NCBI GenBank assembly: GCA_026982315.1
Contig: JALSHI010000025.1
Span: forward strand, 124,001-188,000
Direction: 5' to 3'
DNA from: Lysobacterales bacterium
GTDB taxonomy: Bacteria > Pseudomonadota > Gammaproteobacteria > Xanthomonadales > Marinicellaceae
DNA: 64,000 nucleotides
This document shows, piece by piece, positions 17,220 to 57,963 of the stretch. Position 1 is the first letter of the stretch; each line of letters starts with the position of its first letter. The notes under the pieces are model-generated. The model saw only the letters and a program-made list of their open reading frames with translations. It did not search any database and was not told the origin of the DNA. The position numbers and the translations under genes are program-made.

Positions 17220-18968
17220 TTATTCCTGATGATTCGTTGATGAAGAGACAGCCGGTGCGGTCTCGCTGTTTAGTCTCAGCACGTCCTTTCCCTGGCGGAA
17301 AACAATATCCACCGGGATTTTGGCGGCCTGAATGCGATTAAGAGCTTCCTGCAGGGCGGGGGATATCTGTCCCTTTTCTTCGAACCATTGTTTTGTCGCC
17401 GCATAGTCGCCATCGCCTTGCAAGGTCAGTATTTTTTGACTTAAGCCCGCGATGGCCCGATGCATGGCTTCCGGGTTAACGCGGTAGGTTTTGGTTTCCG
17501 GATCAAAAGTAAAGGCGCCGTGTTTGGCAAAATAGTTGAATCTTAGCCGGTTGGCCACGCCGTGGGCGGAACTGGAGCCAAAACGAATGGAGCGAAAAAT
17601 GCCCGCCAGGAAAGTGGTGTAGTAATCCATCAGTTCGCCATCGGTGATTTCTCCTTTTTCCAAAAGCTTTTCCACCATGTACAAACCGAGAATATCGGCC
17701 TTACCTTCTTCTGTGGCCGAAGCCAGTTCTTTCAGGGACTGGCGCACTGTGCCTTGACCGTTAATGGTGTTTTTTATTCCCAAGCCATGGGCCACTTCGT
17801 GAAACATGGTGTTGGCAAAAAAAGCATCAAAGGTTACATGCTTGCGTTGATCCGGGGCAATCACAATATCGGCAATGGGCTGTAAAATTTTGTCAAACTT
17901 GGCGCGCATGGCATTTTTCAATTGCAGCCGCCGGGTCCCTTTTTCCAGTTGCACCTGTTCATCGTTGGGCAAATTGATGGCTATGGTTTTGGAACCGGCA
18001 TTGCTGTGACCGGCGTAGTACACCACATCGTAAGCATTCAGGTCTGAATCAGTGCCAGGTTTTTCGGCTTTATATCGGGGCGCGACCGGGAGAGATTTTT
18101 GCAGGTCAGGCAACAAGGCGGAAAAACGCGCCAGTTTTCGACTCCATTCCTTGTCTTTGAGCAATACATAGGCCTCATAGGCCGCCTTGTAGCCAAACAG
18201 TTGGTCTTCATAGGTTTCAATGGGGCCGATGACAATGTCAATGGGATTATCCTTGGTGTCCAGCCATTGCCTGTCACTGTCACGAAAGTCATCAGACAGG
18301 AGTGCGGCGGCGCGCATGCGCAGATACCTGGCAAAACTCGGGTTTTGTGCCAAATCTGCGGCCTGGCGAAGCAATTTGGCTGCCTGTTCCAGTTGCGTAG
18401 CATAGGCCTGGTGATAAGGCACGGTCACCAGTTGTCCCCGGGCATTGCGCCGGAGCAGGGTATACAGGCTGGTTTTTTCAGGCAATTGAGCACGCTTGAA
18501 TTCTTCTTTGCTCATGTCTTCAGGGTAAAAGCGGGCGCCAGGGGGTTTTTGGCCGTATTGGGGCAGAAAGGGCTTGTCTCCATTGAGCCGGTCCCATGGG
18601 CCATAATTGATTTCCACCAGCCTTGCCAGGTTGGCGTTGTCATACTGGCTAATCTCGGCCAGCAGGCTTTCTTTATCGCCCCAGGCCTGTTTCCAGAATA
18701 AATCATCCATGATGGCGGCAGCATCGATCAGCAGGGCAATCATTTTCTTCTGATTTTGCGAGTAACCCGAAGTGTCTGCATCCAGGGTAAATTCCGCGTA
18801 AATGTCTTTCACCCGCGGCAAGGATTTCAATGCTGTTTGGGTGGTTTTGTTATTGTTTGGGTGACCGCTTTTTGCTGGATTGGAGTCCCTGTTGGGATAA
18901 GTGGAATTCTGGCAAGCCATAAAGGAAAAAAGTGCCAGCATGGTGATGATAACAGTGCGCAAAAACAT
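17220..18968 (-). CDS. M49-like zinc metallopeptidase, predicted lipoprotein
   Basis: The 582-residue protein has a lipoprotein signal with lipobox FMAC (Cys19), so it is probably anchored in the envelope. The zinc site is HEVAH at residues 390-394, followed by EEGKAD at 420-425. This resembles dipeptidyl-peptidase III (M49), but M49 proper has HELLGH with one extra residue, whereas this has a regular HEXXH. Bacterial relatives are annotated as Zn-dependent hydrolases. Substrate is unknown; peptides or cell-wall fragments are possible. It is the first gene before the CDF transporter and diverges from the FkbM gene, with an extended -10 element on each strand of the gap. Confidence 0.72.
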   Translation of the reverse strand: MFLRTVIITMLALFSFMACQNSTYPNRDSNPAKSGHPNNNKTTQTALKSLPRVKDIYAEFTLDADTSGYSQNQKKMIALLIDAAAIMDDLFWKQAWGDKESLLAEISQYDNANLARLVEINYGPWDRLNGDKPFLPQYGQKPPGARFYPEDMSKEEFKRAQLPEKTSLYTLLRRNARGQLVTVPYHQAYATQLEQAAKLLRQAADLAQNPSFARYLRMRAAALLSDDFRDSDRQWLDTKDNPIDIVIGPIETYEDQLFGYKAAYEAYVLLKDKEWSRKLARFSALLPDLQKSLPVAPRYKAEKPGTDSDLNAYDVVYYAGHSNAGSKTIAINLPNDEQVQLEKGTRRLQLKNAMRAKFDKILQPIADIVIAPDQRKHVTFDAFFANTMFHEVAHGLGIKNTINGQGTVRQSLKELASATEEGKADILGLYMVEKLLEKGEITDGELMDYYTTFLAGIFRSIRFGSSSAHGVANRLRFNYFAKHGAFTFDPETKTYRVNPEAMHRAIAGLSQKILTLQGDGDYAATKQWFEEKGQISPALQEALNRIQAAKIPVDIVFRQGKDVLRLNSETAPAVSSSTNHQE

Positions 18969-21858: not shown

Positions 21859-22961
21859 AAAAAGCCGCTTACCAGTTACTTGAGTCAACGGTTGGGCAGG
21901 CGGCCAATGGCGTTTTGGGAAAACAGGTCTGGCTACGCAGTCATATACGGAGAATTCTCTTGAAACAGCAATTCACCCTCGACAAAGATCGTCTTGACCG
22001 CTGGTATCGCTTGCCGGTGGAAGAACGCAATCAGCAAAACAATGCGCTCATTGACGAGCGACTTTTGCCCTGGCGCGTGATGGTGCGCCGCAGTCAAAAG
22101 AAACCCTTGCCCGGGCTGGCGGGTTTCCATGTCATTTTTTTTCATATCCCCAAAACCGGCGGCACCACGCTGGATTATCTGACTGCAAAAAACTATCGCA
22201 TCGATTTCGTCCAGCAAGTCAACGCGCCAGCGCTGGATGAACATGTGGCCGGAGCCTTCAAGAACAAACGGGCTTATCGGGCCTATTTGGGGCATTACGA
22301 ATTAAATGATGTGGTCTATCAGTTGCTGGACCGGCCCAAACTGGTACAGTTCACCATGCTGCGGGAGCCTGTGTCGCGCGTGGTCTCATATTACGATTAT
22401 CTGCGCAGCAGTCCCAACCACCCGAAATATCCTATTGCCAAGGATTTGACCCTGGCAGAGTTTGTTCAGCATCCGGAGATTGACGAAGTCGAAAACGGCC
22501 AGTCTTACCGGATTCTGGGGTTACTCAAACATGGCTTGCACCACCGCTGTCAGCAATCGGAAAAAGCCTTGATTGACGCTGTCACGCATCAGCTTGAACA
22601 CCGTTTTTCCCTGTTTGGGTTAACCGAGCGCTTTGACGATTTTCTGATTATGGCGCAAAGAACCCTGGGCTGGCCGGATATTTTCTACAAACGCCTGAAC
22701 GAATCCCGGGTCAAAACAGACAAGCGCACGATACCGGCGGAAACGCTGGAGATTATCCGCCAGCGAAACCGCATTGACAGTGCGTTGTATGAATTTGCAA
22801 CCCGGCTGTTTGACCAGCGCTTTAAACGCCTGGGACTTGACAGTGAAGACACACAGCGTTTCCAGGCAGCCAACCAGTCATTTGTGGACCTGTTGCAATG
22901 GCACCAATGGCGGGATACCGATAATTGCGACTCCAGGCAGGACACTCGCTACAGCGCGTGA
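21855..22961 (+). CDS. Sulfotransferase family protein
   Basis: The 368-residue protein carries the 5'-phosphosulfate-binding loop FHIPKTGGTTLDYL (PKTGGTT at residues 99-105) and a 3'-phosphate motif LREPVSRVVSYYDYL, as in the carbohydrate (heparan-type, sulfotransfer_2) class that moves sulfate from PAPS onto sugars. A basic N-terminal stretch precedes the domain; no membrane anchor is evident. Its ATG overlaps the phosphoesterase stop (ATGA), and the next gene starts 8 bases after its end, so the three are surely one transcription unit. A glycan or glycolipid acceptor is inferred from family and context. Confidence 0.82.
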   Translation: MKKAAYQLLESTVGQAANGVLGKQVWLRSHIRRILLKQQFTLDKDRLDRWYRLPVEERNQQNNALIDERLLPWRVMVRRSQKKPLPGLAGFHVIFFHIPKTGGTTLDYLTAKNYRIDFVQQVNAPALDEHVAGAFKNKRAYRAYLGHYELNDVVYQLLDRPKLVQFTMLREPVSRVVSYYDYLRSSPNHPKYPIAKDLTLAEFVQHPEIDEVENGQSYRILGLLKHGLHHRCQQSEKALIDAVTHQLEHRFSLFGLTERFDDFLIMAQRTLGWPDIFYKRLNESRVKTDKRTIPAETLEIIRQRNRIDSALYEFATRLFDQRFKRLGLDSEDTQRFQAANQSFVDLLQWHQWRDTDNCDSRQDTRYSA

Positions 22962-22969
22962 GTCCCAAC

Positions 22970-24043
22970 ATGCAAAAAATTCGTAACCAGTGGCGTAATT
23001 ACAGTACATTATTTCGCTGGTTGATGGGCACCTATTACCAACAGGAAAAGTGGGCTTTCTGGTTCGTACAAGCTTTAATGGGAGCCGCAACAGTACTGGG
23101 GTTTATCTGGATGACCGGCGTAGTGCTGGGGTTTGCCCATGAACAAGGTGCCGTGCCCGAGCGATATCGGTTGTTTGCGCCATTGTTTCAGCAACCTTTA
23201 TGGGTCTGGTTAGGCTTGTTATCTGTGGCCGGTTTATTGTCGGCAGTGGCCTTTTACTTGTCCTTTCGCGTCGGCGTTGAGTCCGCCTTGCGATTCCAAG
23301 GCCGCCTTTTTCAGGATGTGCTGCAGGCATATTGGCGCACCTTCACTCTACAGCCCCGTAATGATCAGGTATCACGTGAGCTGCTGCGTATCCTGCGTTT
23401 GAACACCCATTTGGCCGGACAGGTATGCAGACGATTGACACGGGCTTTCATTCCTGCACTAACCGCCATTGTCGGGAGTTTTGGGCTTTTTTATCTGAAC
23501 TTTGACTTGACACTCATGCTGTTGCCGCTGTTTATCCTCTATGCGGCGGCTTTGTATCGCGTTAACATCCTGGCTGCTGAAACATCCAACAAGTTACAGC
23601 AAGTCTTTCAACACAGCCAGGAAAGCCTGAAAGCAGCGTTGCGAAACAGGCATCCAGAGAATGGTACGGCTGCCGTCAACGAATCAGCTAAAAAAATCCT
23701 GCTGGAAAGTGAATACCTGCCACTATCGCGCCTAAAATACCAGCGACGCCTGGTGGAGATTCATGTGACCTGGATAAAAACCGTGTTATTGGTTATGGCC
23801 ATTATCCTGCTGGTCTTTGGATTTGGCTGGAACCAGCACAAAGGCGGCGTTGACTGGGCAGCTTTGTTGATCTATCTGGTCTTATTGCGATTTACCGCCA
23901 CCGGCTGGCAACTGTTGGGCATGTCCACCGTGGCTTTCAGCCGCTTTTTGCCGGAAATCAAAGAGCTAAATGCGTTTTTGCAGCACCCTGAAAACCTTTC
24001 GGCACGCGCTTCCGAAAGTTTGGAAGATCTGGAAGAATACTAG
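22970..24043 (+). CDS. ABC-exporter-like transmembrane protein without ATPase domain
   Basis: This 357-residue protein has about six hydrophobic segments arranged as in type IV ABC exporters: two early helices (about 35-55 and 70-95), a long cytosolic loop containing VGVESALRFQGRLFQDVL (coupling-helix-like), a central pair (about 145-190), and a last pair (about 268-320). It ends at ELNAFLQHPENLSARASE, the point where the nucleotide-binding domain would begin in a full exporter, and no Walker motif is present here or in neighbours. I start it at the ATG at 22970; an upstream TTG at 22925 would overlap the sulfotransferase. Function unknown: it may pair with an ATPase encoded elsewhere, or act without one. 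Confidence 0.68.
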   Translation: MQKIRNQWRNYSTLFRWLMGTYYQQEKWAFWFVQALMGAATVLGFIWMTGVVLGFAHEQGAVPERYRLFAPLFQQPLWVWLGLLSVAGLLSAVAFYLSFRVGVESALRFQGRLFQDVLQAYWRTFTLQPRNDQVSRELLRILRLNTHLAGQVCRRLTRAFIPALTAIVGSFGLFYLNFDLTLMLLPLFILYAAALYRVNILAAETSNKLQQVFQHSQESLKAALRNRHPENGTAAVNESAKKILLESEYLPLSRLKYQRRLVEIHVTWIKTVLLVMAIILLVFGFGWNQHKGGVDWAALLIYLVLLRFTATGWQLLGMSTVAFSRFLPEIKELNAFLQHPENLSARASESLEDLEEY

Positions 24044-24097: not shown

Positions 24098-24940
24098 ATG
24101 GAAAAAGACAAACAACAAATGGAAGATGACTCCCGATCGTGGTGGGAGAAACTGGGACAGGTGATTTCCGGCGAGCCGAAAAACCGGCAGGAACTCCTCG
24201 ACATTCTGCGCGAAGCGCGGGCCAACGGGCTGCTGGATGCCGACGTGTTGGGTATGATAGAAGGGGCGCTCAAGGTCAGCGAACTGCAAGTACGTCAGGT
24301 CATGATTCCACGGGCACAAATGGTGGCGATACCCCAGCAGGCCAGTCTGGATGAAATTCTACATATCATCGTGGATTCAGGCCACTCCCGCTTTCCTGTC
24401 ACCGGCGAAGACAAGGACGAGATTGAAGGCATTTTGCTGGCCAAGGATTTGCTCAAGCATTTTATCAGCCCCCAGAATGCTTTTGATATTAATCAATATA
24501 TCCGGCCTGCGGTTTTTATCCCTGAATCCAAACGGGTGAATGTGCTGTTGAAAGAGTTTCGCACAAACCGGAATCACATGGCCATTGTGCTGGATGAGTA
24601 TGGTGGGGTGGCCGGTCTGGTGACCATTGAAGATTTGCTGGAAGAAATTGTTGGCGATATCGATGACGAATATGATGAAGAGGAGGACCCCTTTATTCTT
24701 GAAGTCAAACCGGGGCAATTCCGTATCAACGCCTTAACCACCATCGAAGATTTTAACGCCCGCTTCAACAGTAACTTTAGCGATGATGAAGTGGACACCA
24801 TTGGTGGACTCATTATTTCCGAGCTTGGCCGTTTGCCAGAAACCGGCGAAAAGGTTCGTGTTGGCGATTATCATTTTCATATTGCCAAAACGGATAATCG
24901 GCGTTTACAAACCGTGGAGTTGGACTTGCCTGCCGCCTGA
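24098..24940 (+). CDS. corC: CorC/HlyC family CBS-domain protein
   Basis: CorC-type proteins are linked to magnesium and cobalt efflux. The 280-residue cytosolic protein has an acidic N-terminus, two CBS domains (about 67-125 and 132-190, with MIPRAQMVAIP, SRFPVTGEDKD and HMAIVLDEYGGVAGLVTIEDLLEEIVG), and a C-terminal CorC_HlyC domain (about 205-278, with DDEVDTIGGLIISELGRLPETGE). In E. coli and relatives corC lies in ybeZ-ybeY-corC-lnt; here the upstream partners are missing from the window and the gene overlaps a DUF4105 gene by one base (TGATG). Confidence 0.92.
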   Translation: MEKDKQQMEDDSRSWWEKLGQVISGEPKNRQELLDILREARANGLLDADVLGMIEGALKVSELQVRQVMIPRAQMVAIPQQASLDEILHIIVDSGHSRFPVTGEDKDEIEGILLAKDLLKHFISPQNAFDINQYIRPAVFIPESKRVNVLLKEFRTNRNHMAIVLDEYGGVAGLVTIEDLLEEIVGDIDDEYDEEEDPFILEVKPGQFRINALTTIEDFNARFNSNFSDDEVDTIGGLIISELGRLPETGEKVRVGDYHFHIAKTDNRRLQTVELDLPAA

Positions 24941-26124
24941 TGCCCGTCCTGTTTTTGTCTCAACACACCCACGATAAAAAAACATATCCTGGATTTTTAC
25001 TGCTGTTTTTTGGTCTGGCCATGGTCATAGTCACGACGGTATGGGCAACCCCGTCGGAAAATACACCAGCCTCGGAAACTGATTCCCCGCGCTTTTTTCT
25101 GGTGACCATTGGCCCGGGAAAGGCTTATTGGTCCGCCTGGGGGCACACGGAATTATTGGTGCAGCAGCCTGGGCAAGAAGGCATTATCTACAGTTATGGC
25201 TATTTTGACTTTGCTGATGAGGACTTTTTCAGCAATTTCCTCACAGGCCGTATGCGCTATTTCCTGGATCATGAGCCGGCTGCCAGGGAGCTGAATCGCT
25301 TTGCCGCCGAAGGCCGTGACATTTGGTTACAACCTCTGGACATTCCCGCTGAAAAATCCTGGCAGCTCTTGCAGGCCTTGCAGCAACAGGATACAGACGC
25401 CAACCGCTACTACGACTATGATTATTTTCAGGCCAATTGCACTTCGCGCATTCGGGACCTGATTAATCAGGCGGTGTCCCGGCCATTGCAACCCTGGCTT
25501 TCTCGCCAGCCAGGGCCAAGCTGGGCCGAGCTGACATTGCCAGTAGACAATCAGGGCTGGCTCAATCTGGCCTTGTCCTTGGCCTATGGACAGCCCGCAT
25601 GGGAAAAGCGCAATCGCTGGGAAAACGCTGTCTTCCCCTTGCGACTCAAAAACACCCTGGAGCAACTACCCGTCGCGTTGCGCCCGGTTGAAAACAGCCA
25701 GCAGGTCTTCCAGGGACGGCCAGCAACAGTGAGTTTCTGGGCCACTCACGGCCCCCTTGCAGGCATCTCACTGCTGTTTTTACTGGCCATGCTATGGCCA
25801 CGCAGCCGATTCTGGGGCATAAAAATCTGGCTGATTGTGCAAACGCTGACAGGCTGGGTTTTACTGGGTTTATGGTTATTGACCAACCATTATATTGCCG
25901 CCAAAAACCCGAATATCCTCCTGATGTGGCCGTGGGCACTGGCATTGCTGAAATGCCAGGGACAGCACAAACGTTATTGTGATAAATGGCTGATGCTGTC
26001 CCTGGCGGCCACTGGGCTCTGGCTGCTCTGGGCGTTTAATGCCGGGGCTTTGTACCTGCTGCCATTTGCACTGTTGGACCTGCTGCTTGTCTTTTTGCTT
26101 TTCCGGGCAAAAAATCACAACTAA
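24940..26124 (+). CDS. DUF4105 / Lnb-type membrane protein, possible lipoprotein N-acyltransferase
   Basis: The 394-residue protein has an N-terminal hydrophobic anchor (about 17-36), a periplasmic domain of DUF4105 type (about 50-240), and three to four hydrophobic segments in the last 150 residues. Conserved-looking catalytic candidates are H69 in SAWGHTELLV and C167 in YFQANCTSRIRDLI, resembling papain-like thiol enzymes. DUF4105 is the N-terminal domain of Lnb, described as the lipoprotein N-acyltransferase of Bacteroides. The gene starts on the corC stop codon, exactly where lnt (the usual N-acyltransferase) lies in many gammaproteobacteria. Family membership is fairly secure; the acyltransferase role is inference from family plus position. 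Confidence 0.7.
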   Translation: MPVLFLSQHTHDKKTYPGFLLLFFGLAMVIVTTVWATPSENTPASETDSPRFFLVTIGPGKAYWSAWGHTELLVQQPGQEGIIYSYGYFDFADEDFFSNFLTGRMRYFLDHEPAARELNRFAAEGRDIWLQPLDIPAEKSWQLLQALQQQDTDANRYYDYDYFQANCTSRIRDLINQAVSRPLQPWLSRQPGPSWAELTLPVDNQGWLNLALSLAYGQPAWEKRNRWENAVFPLRLKNTLEQLPVALRPVENSQQVFQGRPATVSFWATHGPLAGISLLFLLAMLWPRSRFWGIKIWLIVQTLTGWVLLGLWLLTNHYIAAKNPNILLMWPWALALLKCQGQHKRYCDKWLMLSLAATGLWLLWAFNAGALYLLPFALLDLLLVFLLFRAKNHN

Positions 26125-26218: not shown

Positions 26219-29200
26219 ATGCTGCACTTGCTAACCGCCTCCGATGAAAAACAGCTTGGCCAACAGCTGGTCAGTGATATCCGCGACACCGAAAGCACGC
26301 CTCTGGATCGGCATTGGCTGGTAGTGGAGAATCATGCCAGTAAGTCGTGGTTGCAACAGTCGTTGGCTCGTGAGTTGGGCATTTGCGCTGGCTTTGACTT
26401 CTTGCAACCTGGCTCGCTCATCTGGCGTACGTTGGAGGAGGCTGGCGTGGATATTCCGGCCACCCCCCAGTTTGATGCCCGCGTATTGCGCTGGCGCGTG
26501 GCCGCATGCCTGTACGAGAAGGAATCGCCTCTGGACTTGTCGGCGCTGATGCAGGCGGAGGAATTTGCCCGGGTGATGGATCGTTATTTGCATTATCGTC
26601 CAAAACTCATGCAACACTGGGCGCAGCGCAAGCAGACTGGTGACCCAGTGGCCGAACTTTGGCATGCCGTGGCCAACCAGTTTGGCCAACAGCATCCGCA
26701 TGTCTTGCTCGACAAGATCCAGCCCGGTACTGCCCATGCTCGCCAGCTTGAACAGCAGCTACCGGCAAGTATTCGCATCTTTAACCCCCGGCAGTTATCG
26801 CCCGTGCAATTACAGGCGGCACTGGTGTTGGCTCGATTTCGCCCGGTCTCCATTTATATCACCAACCCGTCACCAGACAATTTCTGGTTTGATATCAAAG
26901 ACAAACAGCAACAACTTTATGAAAAACTGAACAATCCTGCGCTGTTTGAGTATTACGATGGCGATAACCTTTCACCTTTGCTTGAGCAGCTAGGACGGCA
27001 AAAAGCCGGCCTGTTAAGTGCCTTGCTGGAACTGGAGGGCATGGATGGTTTCCGGCACACTGTTATTGAAAACGTGCCACAAAACACCAGTGCAAGCCTC
27101 CAGGCGAACGATACCTTGCTGACCAGCCTGCGCCACGATCTTTTAAGCAACCAGCCCAGCCCCAAACCGCATCCGGTGGATGCCTCCATACGCATACATG
27201 CTTGTCACAGTCGCCGTCGTGAACTGGAAGTGGCGCGGGATGATATCCTCGATGCCATTGAAAACCAGGGGCTGAAACCAGCTAAAATTCTGGTGTTGGC
27301 GCCGGATATCAACGATTATAGCCAGTGGATTGAAGGCGTTTTTGGCCAAGCCATGGCAAGGGAATATCACGACCCTGCTTCTGCTACCCCTCCAAGCACG
27401 CTATCGATCCGGATTCCCTGGCATATTGACCGCATGCATATCAAGGACGCGCCAGCGCCAGCTGCCTTGCTGGCGCTGTTAAACGCACTGGATGGCCGCC
27501 TGAGCGCGCCTGATGTAATTGATTTATTGCTGCATGAGCCGTTACGCGCCCGTTTTGGCATTGAGTTGTCTGATCTGCCCCGATTGGAAACGTGGATTCA
27601 GCAATCGGGGGTTTGCTGGGGACAGGATGCTGCGCACCGACGTCAACTGGGCTTTTATCCAAGCCAAACCAACACCTGGGCTTTTGGTTGTGACCGGTGG
27701 GTGGCGGGATTACTGCTAGGCGAGCATGATATTTCTCTGGATGTTCTGGAAACCTATGGCGCTCTGGAAGGTGACGAAGCGGTTTTTGCGGGCTTTTTTG
27801 ATTTTCTTGTCCGTTTGCAACAGGCTCACCAATGGTGGCAAGGCCAAAAGAATACAGGGTTGTCGTCAACCGAGTGGCTACAGGGATTGCAGGGCCTGAT
27901 TCGTGATTTTATGGCTGATTGCGATGTTCGGGGGCTGGAAAAAATCCAGGCTGAATTGCATAAAACGCTGCTCACAGAAACGCAAAAAACCCAGCCACAG
28001 CTTTTCCCGGAAACCGTATTAACACTGGTGGAAAAAGCCTTGGATAAAGGCGAGTACCATTCGGTTGGGGAAATTGGCGTGCGTTTTCAGAGTTGGGATA
28101 ACGCCTGCCTGGGCCCGGCAAAAATGGTTTTTGTGATGGGCATGAATGCCGGCGAATTCCCCAGAAATGAACCATTTTCTGATATGGACATCACCCGCAT
28201 ACAACCGGCGCCATTGGACAAAAACCGGCGTCTGAATGATAAAGATCTGTTGCTTGAGCTATTGGCCGAGCCACTGGATCGAGTGGCTTTTTCCTATCAG
28301 GGCTTTAGCCCCGCCGATAACATGGAACTGGCCCCATCCAATCTGCTGGAAACCTTGCTGGAATACCTGCAGGAAAAAACCCAAAAAAACGCTGAAAAGC
28401 CCTTCACAATCATCAAGCACAAGATGCATGGTTTTCACCCTGATTATTTCAGACAGGCAGAGAACAACAAGACACCAGATTTGTTCAGCTATCAGGGTTC
28501 CGCCTGCGAGCAAGCCAGGCAAATATGTCACCGTGTTGATCCGTCACCCGCATCGACGGCCATTTCAGCACGCCTCCCGCTGCAGGAAATCTCTTTGATC
28601 TCGCTCGAAGAGCTGGCGGCTTTTTTTGCTGATCCTGTTAAATACTTTCTCCGGCATTGTTTGCCGGTCAGGCTGGGAATTGCCGATGACACGCTGCCGG
28701 ATACAGAAAACTGGGATTTGCAGGGATTAAACAAATACCGGGCTGAAAAACTGGTGATGGATTTTCCCCTGACCCAGGCGCAGGACATTCAAAAATTACT
28801 GCACCTGGACGGCCTGTTGCCCGACACACCCACCGGACAACTGGCAGCCTCCACATTTGCCAGCTCCATGGCTGACATGCTGGCCATTCGCTCGCAGTTG
28901 CGCCTGCGACCGCAAGCCTTTGAATGGCGTGCCGATGATAATCAACCAGGTGTGGTGAGACAAGTCACCGGAGAACTCAGCATAACGGCTGACGGGACGC
29001 TGGTCAGTGTCGTGCCTGAAGCCGGGCAAAAAGGTGTGACGCCCAAAGCGGTGATAAGCCACTGGCTTGGCCATGTGTTTTTTTCTCCCGGGAGCGAATC
29101 CTGGCTGGTTTCTTCCGGCCAGTGTTTTCGCTTTGCGGCAATTTCCCGGCCCGATTGTGTTCAACAAAAAATGCTGGAGCAGTTTGCGCAGGGCAACCAG

Positions 29201-51601: not shown

Positions 51602-54496
51602 TTACTCAAACACTTTCTCCACCGGAACGATTTTTACCTGCTCTTTGGGAATGTTCAGAGGGTATGACTTGAATTTTTCGTCCTCTTTCAACACATCTTC
51701 AGGTTTGGGAGAGTTGTATTTCAGCACCGATTCCCGCTCATTGACCAAGCGGTCGGCCATGTCTTTCGCGTCTTTGGTAATAAACACATACTGGATATTG
51801 TCTTCCTGCAAGTGTTTTTTGATGGCGCGATTCACATCATCCACTGTCATGTTATTCAGTTCATCGCGCACATAATTGACAAAATCCTTGTCAATGCCGT
51901 AATAGGCCTGATCCAGTGCGTAGCCCAGCTGCCGATCCTGGGATTTCACCAGTAAACCGGCGTATTTGCTGAGGTAATTGCGCGTGCTTTCGAACTGTTC
52001 AGGTGTCAGGCCATGTTTGATAAGGTGATGCAATTCATACTGGGCCACACGGGTGGCGAAGTGGGCATCGTTATTATTCCGCAAAGGCCGCAGCCAGATT
52101 TGAAAAATTTGACTTGAACGGCCCAGATTGGCATCCGGTTGTGTCAGAAACATGCCCCGGGGGAAATACTCGATATAGGCATAGTCGCCATAATTCATGC
52201 CACGCGCCTCCCGGATACGCTGGTACAAATGACTGTTGGAACTGCGGTGCTCACCCAGATAGGAGCGCGCCAGCCACAGGGCCACCCAGTCTTTGTCGCC
52301 ACGTTTCACGTCGATGGGAAAACCGAAGGAAACCGCAGTAGGCTGGGTTTCTTTCTCGACAATGGTCACGTGACGACCTTTTAGCGCTGGCGCTGGCGGA
52401 ATCTCGACTTTGACCTTGTTGCCATAGGGCAAACCACGGGCCAGCTTGTCGATAAATGCCTGCTTTTGCTCGTCGGTCAAATGGCCTGTCAGGCCCACGG
52501 TCAGATTGCCCTGGGTGTACTGGTTGCGATAGAAGTTTTTGACATCATCCAAAGTCAGTTTTTTCAGATCAGAAACCGAGCCCAGATTCAGACTGCCATA
52601 AGAATGACCAGCATAGATTTCACTGTAAAGCACCTCTTTGCCCAGCTCTTCATCATTATTGCCTTTGAGATTGGTTTCAATGGCGTTGATCTGCTGCTGT
52701 TTAAGGCGCTTGAAGTCGTCTTCCCGAAAGCCGGGCTGGAGCAGGCTTTCCAGTATCAACTGGCTATATTCCGGCCATTTGTCCTGGTGCACGCGGCCGC
52801 GGAAAGAGGTCATTTCCTTGTCAACCTGGGCATCAAAAGACGCCGCCATGGGATACATGGCCTTTTGGATCTCACTGATAGAACGTTTTTGTGAACCGCC
52901 CTGAGTCAGCATAGCGGCTGTCAGCGCAGCCACGCCCCGTTGCCCTTCGGGTTCAAAGGCCGCGCCGGTATTAAACAACAGGTTAACATCCACAATGGGG
53001 CTGTTATTGCGCTTGTCCATCACGGAAAACTGAGCCTTGGGTGTTTCCATCTTGGCTTTGACGATATCGGCAATGGAGTAATCCGGATTGAAGCCCTGGG
53101 CCTTTTCGTCATCCGAAAGCGTAACAGTCACCCGCCCTTCATCCGTCAGCCATTTGCGTGCCGCGGCCTGAACATCCTTGACATTCACTTCGTTGATGCG
53201 GGCAAAGGCCCGGTTGATGTCTTCGGGGTCCCGATTGGCCTGAACCACGCTGGCGAGCATATCCGCAATGGCTGCGGTATTGTCCAAAGAGTTGGTAAAA
53301 CCGTAACGGGAGGCTGATTTCAGGTCATCCAGCCGTTTGGCATCCACGGTTTCCGTCTGCGCCTGGGCGATGGTGTCCAGAATGGCCTGTTTGACCGGTT
53401 CAAAGTTTTTCTTGTCAGTCAGCCGTGCTCCAATATAGATCAGGCTGGGATCCTTGCGATCAGGGGCGTAAAAAAACAGGTTATCGGCCAAACGGCGATT
53501 CAATACCACATCCTGATGCAATTTGGAGGTATCCCCAAAATACAGCTCGCCCATCATGTCCAAGGCGGCCTTGTCTTTCTTGTGGACATTGTTGGCCGGA
53601 CCGTGAAAAGCCATGACCAGCCATGGCTGGGTTGGCGCATTCCATTGAATATGCTCATAGACCTGGCCTGTGGCTGGCGGCTCCTGGGGAATATCCACCG
53701 TATAATTGCCACGCTGCCAACTACCCCAGTATTTTTCAGCCAGGGCGAAGGTTTCTTCCGGGTCCACATCTCCGGCCACGATCAGCACGGATTTTTCCGG
53801 ACGGTACCAGCGGTCAAAAAACTTCAGGGCATAATCCATCTGGTTGGGCATGTTCTCAATATCCCGGTAAAACCCCATGGTGGTGTGCTTGTAGGGATGC
53901 ACCTTGAACGCCTTGTCCCGCACCACTTCAAACATCTTGCTCACCGGATTTGCGCTGTTTTTCAAATATTCGCCTTTCACCGCCAGCGCTTCTGTCCGAA
54001 ATTGCGGCTCGGTAAAGGAAAGGTTTTGAAAACGATCCGCTTCAAGTTTCAGGATGGTTTCCAAATCCGCCTTGGTGGCGGTAATGTGGTAATTAGTGTA
54101 ATCATCCGTGGTATAGGCGTTTTGATCCGCCCCGGCGTTTTTCAGAATTTCGCCATAAACGTCGCTGGGGTATTTTTTTGTGCCCCGGAACATCATGTGT
54201 TCAAAGAAATGGGCAAAGCCGGATTTCCCCGGTTCGACCTCATTCCGCGAGCCGGTTTGCACGGGAATCTGGACGGAAATCACATCCGGGTATTCGGTAG
54301 GCACCACAATCACCCGCAGCCCGTTGGGCAAGTCGCGAATGTGATACTTTTGGGTGAAAACCTTCTGATCCGGATTCTCTGTGGTTTCACTCTGGGGCTT
54401 TTTATTGTTGGCGCAAGCCGTCAGGCTGGCACCAAGTATGGCCACACCTGCCAGTAAGTTAAGGGTGTGACGTAACAGATTTTTGCCTGTTTTCAT
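51602..54496 (-). CDS. M16 family zinc peptidase, lipoprotein
   Basis: From the ATG at 54496 the protein has 964 residues. It has a lipoprotein signal with lipobox LTAC (Cys at about residue 28), so it is expected to be envelope-anchored. The first M16 half contains HFFEH in GFAHFFEHMMFRG; the second half is a non-catalytic M16 fold (HSYGSLNLGSVSDL region). The ATG lies 7 bases after GGAG; a longer reading of 17 codons upstream would bury the signal. The paralogue at 36.0-38.7 kb shares the architecture but not the lipobox, so the cell has a soluble and a tethered version. Confidence 0.93.
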   Translation of the reverse strand: MKTGKNLLRHTLNLLAGVAILGASLTACANNKKPQSETTENPDQKVFTQKYHIRDLPNGLRVIVVPTEYPDVISVQIPVQTGSRNEVEPGKSGFAHFFEHMMFRGTKKYPSDVYGEILKNAGADQNAYTTDDYTNYHITATKADLETILKLEADRFQNLSFTEPQFRTEALAVKGEYLKNSANPVSKMFEVVRDKAFKVHPYKHTTMGFYRDIENMPNQMDYALKFFDRWYRPEKSVLIVAGDVDPEETFALAEKYWGSWQRGNYTVDIPQEPPATGQVYEHIQWNAPTQPWLVMAFHGPANNVHKKDKAALDMMGELYFGDTSKLHQDVVLNRRLADNLFFYAPDRKDPSLIYIGARLTDKKNFEPVKQAILDTIAQAQTETVDAKRLDDLKSASRYGFTNSLDNTAAIADMLASVVQANRDPEDINRAFARINEVNVKDVQAAARKWLTDEGRVTVTLSDDEKAQGFNPDYSIADIVKAKMETPKAQFSVMDKRNNSPIVDVNLLFNTGAAFEPEGQRGVAALTAAMLTQGGSQKRSISEIQKAMYPMAASFDAQVDKEMTSFRGRVHQDKWPEYSQLILESLLQPGFREDDFKRLKQQQINAIETNLKGNNDEELGKEVLYSEIYAGHSYGSLNLGSVSDLKKLTLDDVKNFYRNQYTQGNLTVGLTGHLTDEQKQAFIDKLARGLPYGNKVKVEIPPAPALKGRHVTIVEKETQPTAVSFGFPIDVKRGDKDWVALWLARSYLGEHRSSNSHLYQRIREARGMNYGDYAYIEYFPRGMFLTQPDANLGRSSQIFQIWLRPLRNNNDAHFATRVAQYELHHLIKHGLTPEQFESTRNYLSKYAGLLVKSQDRQLGYALDQAYYGIDKDFVNYVRDELNNMTVDDVNRAIKKHLQEDNIQYVFITKDAKDMADRLVNERESVLKYNSPKPEDVLKEDEKFKSYPLNIPKEQVKIVPVEKVFE

Positions 54497-56856: not shown

Positions 56857-57963
56857 ATGAAAAAAATTGTTATGACTGCCACTCTGCTTGCCGCTGTGGC
56901 TTTGACCGGTTGCACCAGTATGAAGCGTCACAGCACAAATGAAAAGCACCGCATCGCTGCGCTGGAATCCAGCCTGAGTGAAACAAAAAAACAACTCACA
57001 GCCGTCCAACGCGAGAATATGGCGCTTAAACAGCAGCAGGACAGCCATGCCATGGTCGTCGGCGACGCTGCCACTTCTCCCATGAATACCGCTGATTACA
57101 TGCTGCCACCCAATGCCAAGCCGGGAGAGTGTTACGCGCGGGTGCTCATTCCACCGACATATTCCACGGTAGAAAAGCAAGTCATTAAATCGCCAGCCAC
57201 GGAAAAAATTGAAGTGGTTCCCGCTCAGTACGAGTGGGTTGAAGAGCAGGTCATGGTGCGGGAACCAGGTGAAAAACTGGTGACTCAACCAGCCGTATAT
57301 GACTGGGTGGAAGAAAAAGTCTTGGTCGAGCCGGCCTCTGAAAAAATCATCACGCATCCGCCGGTTTATGACACCACCACAGAAAAAGTCCTGGTCAAAC
57401 CAGCTTATACCACCTGGAAGAAAGGCCGCGGCCCCATTGAAAAAGTCGACAATGCTACCGGCGAGATCATGTGTCTGGTAGAAGTGCCAGCTGAATACAA
57501 AACCGTTACCAAACGGGTACTGGTCGAGCCGGCTCGCACAGAGACCGTGCATATTCCAGCCAAATATAAAACCATCAAGAAAAAAGTGATGGTCCAACCA
57601 CCGAAAGTCATCAAACAGGAAATCCCGGCTGAATATAAAACCGTCAAAGTCAAGAAAATGGTGCACCCACCTGAAACCCGCCGTGTGCCAATTCCAGCCG
57701 AATATGAAACCGTGGTAGAACGGAAGAAAGTCGCCGATGCCCGCATGGAATGGCGTCCCATTTTATGCGAAACCAACACCACTCCCCAGGTGGTCCAGGA
57801 CATTCAGCGCGCTTTGAAAGCCGCCGGCTATAACCCTGGCCCCATTGACGGTGTCATTGGATCGGCCACCATGCAAGCCCTCAAGGCGTTTCAACGAGAC
57901 AAAAACCTGGCCGAAGGCCAAATTACACTGGAAACACTGAAAGCTTTGGGTATATCCAGCTAA
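56857..57963 (+). CDS. Repeat lipoprotein with peptidoglycan-binding domain
   Basis: The 368-residue protein has a lipobox LTGC (Cys19), a short coiled coil (HRIAALESSLSETKKQL), then a region of irregular 20-25 residue repeats built on Pro-Ala-x-Tyr-x-x-(V/I) and Val-Lys/Val-Glu: PAEYKTVTKRVLVEP, PAKYKTIKKKVMVQP, PAEYKTVKVKKMVHP, PAEYETVVERKKV (about 208-295), preceded by looser copies such as PAQYEWVEEQVMVREP. It ends with a PG_binding_1 domain (about 305-365, IQRALKAAGYNPGPIDGVIG). It would link the outer membrane to peptidoglycan. AGAGGGA lies 5 bases before the ATG. A strong terminator follows. Confidence 0.82.
   Translation: MKKIVMTATLLAAVALTGCTSMKRHSTNEKHRIAALESSLSETKKQLTAVQRENMALKQQQDSHAMVVGDAATSPMNTADYMLPPNAKPGECYARVLIPPTYSTVEKQVIKSPATEKIEVVPAQYEWVEEQVMVREPGEKLVTQPAVYDWVEEKVLVEPASEKIITHPPVYDTTTEKVLVKPAYTTWKKGRGPIEKVDNATGEIMCLVEVPAEYKTVTKRVLVEPARTETVHIPAKYKTIKKKVMVQPPKVIKQEIPAEYKTVKVKKMVHPPETRRVPIPAEYETVVERKKVADARMEWRPILCETNTTPQVVQDIQRALKAAGYNPGPIDGVIGSATMQALKAFQRDKNLAEGQITLETLKALGISS

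Follow-up and report, generated by a model that had tools for sequence, protein, structure and literature searches.

Gene organization at the corC locus

The window analyzed here is a 64,000-nucleotide stretch of DNA from a Lysobacterales bacterium. Its plus strand carries corC (24098–24940), which encodes a CBS/CorC_HlyC domain protein identified by matches to CorC_HlyC, CBS, and the CorC NCBIfam model. This gene is the upstream partner of an lnb-type gene (24940–26124, plus strand) encoding a predicted lipoprotein N-acyltransferase of 394 aa, assigned by NCBIfam Lnb, Pfam Lnb_N, and hhalign. The two reading frames meet in the sequence TGATG (24938–24942, plus strand), in which base 24940 is common to the TGA stop codon of corC and the ATG start codon of the lnb-type gene. 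The overlap of a DUF4105-type reading frame with the corC stop, as reported in the first-pass annotation, is therefore correct. The next gene on the 3' side begins only at 26219, so corC and the lnb-type gene appear to be a two-gene unit on their own. Immediately 5' of corC lies a gene for a 372-aa membrane protein (22925–24043), which by eye resembles the membrane half of an ABC transporter; it matched no Pfam family.

The window was also said to hold at least three predicted lipoproteins. Three lipoprotein-like N-termini were indeed seen, two in a motif scan (51602–54496, minus strand; 56857–57963, plus strand) and one by eye (17220–18968, minus strand, with the N-terminal stretch "...FSFMACQNS").

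Family assignment of the window protein

Homology was computed with domain profiles and profile–profile alignment. The window protein matched Pfam Lnb_N, formerly DUF4105, with 77 bits (cut-off 22.2). The C-terminal Lnb membrane domain, 5TMH_Lnb, scored slightly below its cut-off in the window protein (20.4 against 25.2 bits); relatives from the same order exceeded it (27.3 and 30.8 bits), and this region of the protein family was aligned with Bacteroidota Lnb in hhalign. The NCBIfam model NF051878, "lipoprotein N-acyltransferase Lnb", matched with an E-value of 5.4e-34 over model positions 8–381 of 394. As the score of 117.7 bits is far from the equivalog cut-off of 550 bits, which a Chitinophagaceae Lnb likewise fails to reach (261.7 bits), we class the window protein as a divergent Lnb homologue outside the NF051878 equivalog, predicted to work like Lnb.

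An hhalign comparison of a profile of 27 order members with one of five Bacteroidota Lnb proteins gave a probability of 100 and an E-value of 2.2e-61 over 347 columns, at approximately 24% identity to Bacteroidota Lnb. Neither LNT_N nor the nitrilase domain (TIGR00546/LNT_N) was found in the window protein. A sequence search of solved structures yielded no Lnb structure, only chance matches (E > 0.5).

Predicted fold and conserved residues

The AlphaFold2 model of the window protein is confident (mean pLDDT 90.9) and shows an N-terminal helix, a periplasmic α/β domain, and a C-terminal helical membrane domain, in this order. The hydrophobic N-terminal helix, defined by the model and by hydropathy, spans residues 18–35 (24991–25044, plus strand) and may be a signal anchor or a signal peptide. 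The periplasmic domain covers residues ≈46–260 (25075–25719, plus strand; pLDDT ≈95), and the membrane domain residues 266–392 (25735–26115, plus strand). This architecture agrees with the earlier description of a membrane protein, the membrane parts of the model being the single N-terminal helix and the C-terminal domain. In structural comparisons, the modeled periplasmic domain resembled TseH (Z = 12.2, rmsd 3.4, 152 residues) and YiiX (Z = 11.0, rmsd 3.6, 160 residues), and more weakly H-REV107 (Z = 6.1). The catalytic domain is thus predicted to adopt a permuted NlpC/P60 fold.

Two residues of this domain had been proposed as catalytic candidates, and both withstood comparison with relatives. 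His69 (codon 25144–25146, plus strand), the candidate catalytic histidine, lies in an FGH motif, and Cys167 (codon 25438–25440, plus strand), the candidate nucleophile, lies in an NC[ST]xxxRD motif. Both were invariant in 41/41 relatives retrieved by profile, a set for which the motif was not required and which therefore provides the unbiased figure for the pair. They were also invariant in 81/81 relatives of a wider set with Bacteroidota, Gemmatimonadota, and Myxococcota rows, which was partly fetched with motifs spanning the His and the Cys and is unbiased for the membrane domain only. Within that domain, G305, N323, N325, and P331 were invariant across the 81 relatives, from Bacteroidota to Xanthomonadales, and H317 was kept in 80 of them. 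The Bacteroidota Lnb sequences in these residue comparisons were others than the characterized Bacteroides protein.

Lipoprotein maturation genes in the host genome

Named relatives place the host in the Lysobacterales/Xanthomonadales, close to Marinicella. Its genome is a 2.24 Mb draft in 70 contigs, 99% complete. It encodes Lgt (251.6 bits) and Lsp (149.9 bits) and has exactly one Lnb_N gene. A normal lnt gene elsewhere in this genome had been named as the observation that would speak against a replacement. None was found: the LNT_N profile had no match, and TIGR00546, whose cut-off is 132.9 bits, matched with 54 bits at best and over the nitrilase part only.

Distribution and genomic position of lnb and lnt

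We surveyed 151 genomes of the order Xanthomonadales/Lysobacterales, some of them drafts, and detected Lnb_N in 144. Canonical Lnt (≈300 bits) was present in only three (G006, G017, and G019), all without Lnb_N, and lnt was not found in complete and near-complete order genomes. One further genome, G092 (96% complete), yielded neither Lnb_N nor Lnt; the genes may be truly lost or may fall in a gap of the assembly. Of 40 loci sampled across ten families of the order, 39 had corC directly or nearly directly upstream of lnb, and the corC–lnb arrangement was also seen at named loci of Xanthomonas, Stenotrophomonas, Dyella, Rhodanobacter, Luteibacter, Arenimonas, and Marinicella. Some members of the order carry further Lnb_N types, one of ≈350 aa (L003, 1330–2382) and one of ≈646 aa with a DUF7844 domain (L214, 1165–3105), neither of which matched the Lnb model.

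The Lnb form of the window (>380 bits) was specific to the order in two wider surveys. Among 321 gammaproteobacterial genomes, it occurred in 4/4 members of the order and in 0/317 of the remaining genomes, in which Lnb matches did not exceed 31 bits and mostly came from a long paralogue; among 398 Pseudomonadota, it occurred in 10/10 order members and 0/388 others. Conversely, 289 of the 317 gammaproteobacteria outside the order, and none of the four within it, had an lnt match above the cut-off (Fisher p ≈8e-5, uncorrected for shared ancestry). The surveyed genomes share ancestry, so these counts do not represent independent events.

Outside the order, corC adjoined lnt in 18 of 20 gammaproteobacterial lnt loci. 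Together with the corC–lnb linkage inside the order, this adjacency indicates the same position with an exchanged gene: one chromosomal position is occupied by lnb in Xanthomonadales/Lysobacterales and by lnt elsewhere in the class. Because other gammaproteobacteria carry lnt directly behind corC, the replacement is strictly in place. Comparative genomics, through the missing lnt and the corC–lnb and corC–lnt positions, thus supports the first-pass proposal that an Lnb-type enzyme took the place of lnt. The proposal had confined the exchange to "this lineage"; the replacement itself is supported, but its extent was underestimated, as it covers nearly the whole order.

History of the proposed replacement

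G006 and G017, which belong to one family of the order, have kept corC–lnt and have no Lnb_N gene. In the CorC tree, they adjoin the lnb-bearing members with weak support, and a single clade of lnb-bearing CorC proteins is compatible with the tree (p-AU 0.47, not rejected). The tree and the retained corC–lnt arrangement therefore fit, and do not prove, one replacement after the family of G006 and G017 had branched off.

The third lnt-bearing genome, G019, was considered as a reversal within the order and set aside on the basis of its gene context and of a CorC-like neighbor scoring only 130 bits. Its lnt gene (L213) lies among a TsaD-family gene, miaB, phoH, a corC-like gene, an HTH gene, and fmt, in the order TsaD family, miaB, phoH, corC-like, lnt, HTH, and fmt. 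We take this gene order to recall Alphaproteobacteria, and the placement of G019 in the family of the host looks doubtful.

Bacteroidota form a separate clade in the Lnb tree, and the Gemmatimonadota rows fall inside those of the order. An import of lnb from Gemmatimonadota by horizontal transfer was considered, but since the nesting runs in this direction and not in the reverse, we favor vertical inheritance inside the order. Six Gemmatimonadota loci (L114, L129, L138, L155, L167, and L170) encode a form of Lnb that is related to the one in Xanthomonadales; no corC lies near them, and lnt is below the cut-off in those genomes.

Proposed function and alternative explanations

We consider it very probable, from sequence comparison, that the window gene encodes the lipoprotein N-acyltransferase of its host, and that this Lnb-type enzyme replaced the unrelated Lnt at corC early in Xanthomonadales. 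With almost the same assurance, we propose that the order, to which major plant pathogens and Stenotrophomonas belong, exchanged the near-universal Lnt at an early stage for Lnb, which has an unrelated fold and occupies the same place in the operon, and that the lipoproteins of these bacteria are triacylated by a different enzyme. Homology, predicted fold, the conserved residue pair, the missing lnt, the presence of lgt and lsp, and the exchange in position come from computation, whereas we infer what reaction is catalyzed, which acyl donor is used, and what the membrane-domain residues do. The permuted NlpC/P60 domain would be held at the periplasmic face of the inner membrane by the N-terminal helix and the C-terminal helical domain. 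The Cys167/His69 pair would remove an acyl chain from a phospholipid and bind it as a thioester, as the fold and the Bacteroides Lnb suggest, and the chain would then be passed to the free α-amine of the lipidated cysteine made by Lgt and Lsp.

An unlikely alternative is that the gene product, an Lnb-like acyltransferase or phospholipase, acts on a different substrate and that these bacteria have diacylated lipoproteins and no N-acyltransferase. Such a reading would accord with the missed equivalog cut-off, with a published genome analysis of Xanthomonas campestris B100 in which no Lnt was found and diacyl anchors were modeled for that reason (PMC10368991), and with the varied lipids on which relatives with the permuted NlpC/P60 fold act (PMC12994826). 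However, the Lnb match spans both domains of the window protein, a property that sets it apart from the ≈350-aa and ≈646-aa Lnb_N types, and the gene is near-universal in the order at the exact position of lnt in other gammaproteobacteria.

We regard it as still less probable that the third acylation falls to a different enzyme, for example a nitrilase-type Lnt that has diverged, and that the corC-linked gene is accessory. Candidates do exist in some members: an Lnt-like protein scoring 147–209 bits occurs in 17 order genomes, 16 of which also carry an Lnb_N gene; Arenimonas metalli has both genes. Most are reading frames of 820–940 aa, with one of 1079 aa (long forms at L086, 1306–3771, and at L087, L090, L091, L096, and L098–L101). 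Among the correctly aligned sequences, a set that leaves out several minus-strand loci, the long ones retain the Glu/Lys/Cys triad, but ICLD replaces ICYE and FPLTE mostly replaces LVPFGE. The 1.5 kb flanks of these genes gave no CorC match, and neither the host genome nor the sampled Xanthomonas and Stenotrophomonas genomes encode such a protein. The long Lnt-like proteins may act on another substrate. Separately, proteins of ≈470–540 aa in family f12 (G100:C1:1165144–1165920 and similar places) and at L225 scored ≈87–102 bits against the Lnt model, chiefly over its first two thirds.

That the host has an lnt gene which escaped detection through incomplete assembly or divergence, so that no replacement occurred, is scarcely credible: the genome is a 70-contig draft, but lnt is also missing from order genomes that are complete or nearly so, and the same search recovered it in most gammaproteobacteria outside the order.

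The replacement of Lnt by an Lnb-type enzyme, the reading we prefer, supplies a candidate for the missing N-acyltransferase of Xanthomonas and predicts triacyl rather than diacyl anchors. If correct, it would widen the range of Lnb beyond Bacteroidota to a well-studied gammaproteobacterial order and offer a clean case in which an unrelated enzyme, encoded at the same operon position, has taken over a single step. The diacyl anchors assumed in a structural study of lipoprotein transport in Xanthomonas (PMC10368991) would then need correction, and one would not expect Lnt inhibitors to act on Xanthomonas or Stenotrophomonas.

Comparison with known systems

Lnb was identified in Bacteroides by Armbruster et al. 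in 2024 (doi 10.1073/pnas.2410909121), according to the citing passage of PMC13251419. In the available portion of PMC12994826 (PLoS Biol 2026), DUF4105 proteins and Lnt are described as displacing each other, with Lnt repeatedly taking the place of DUF4105 proteins, in three genomic contexts. The swapping of Lnt and DUF4105 proteins is therefore already published as an idea; within that portion, the text on swapping does not name corC, Xanthomonadales, or an order-wide loss of lnt. The literature searched, with subscription papers and preprints outside its scope, contained no assignment of Lnb to Xanthomonadales/Lysobacterales, and nothing useful emerged when direct evidence was sought on how lipoproteins are acylated in Xanthomonas, Xylella, Stenotrophomonas, or Lysobacter. 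As Lnb itself is known, the novelty is limited, and the order-wide replacement in place is the interesting part.

The window protein shares with Bacteroides Lnb a two-domain layout of Lnb_N and, as predicted here, a membrane domain, the His/Cys pair, a full-length profile match, and a genome without lnt. It differs from Bacteroidota Lnb in its sequence, at the low identity given above, and in its gammaproteobacterial host; furthermore, lnb is fixed behind corC in the order, an arrangement not seen at the five Bacteroidota loci. The window protein resembles the permuted NlpC/P60 lipid enzymes (TseH, YiiX, LRAT/H-REV107, and Tox-Act1) in its His/Cys pair and in the fold predicted for its periplasmic domain, whereas those enzymes act on other substrates and are not known to possess the C-terminal Lnb membrane domain. 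Lnt, the apolipoprotein N-acyltransferase of the nitrilase superfamily (TIGR00546), resembles the window protein in the predicted reaction and in the position of its gene behind corC. The two are unrelated in fold and catalytic residues, which makes the exchange a non-homologous replacement.
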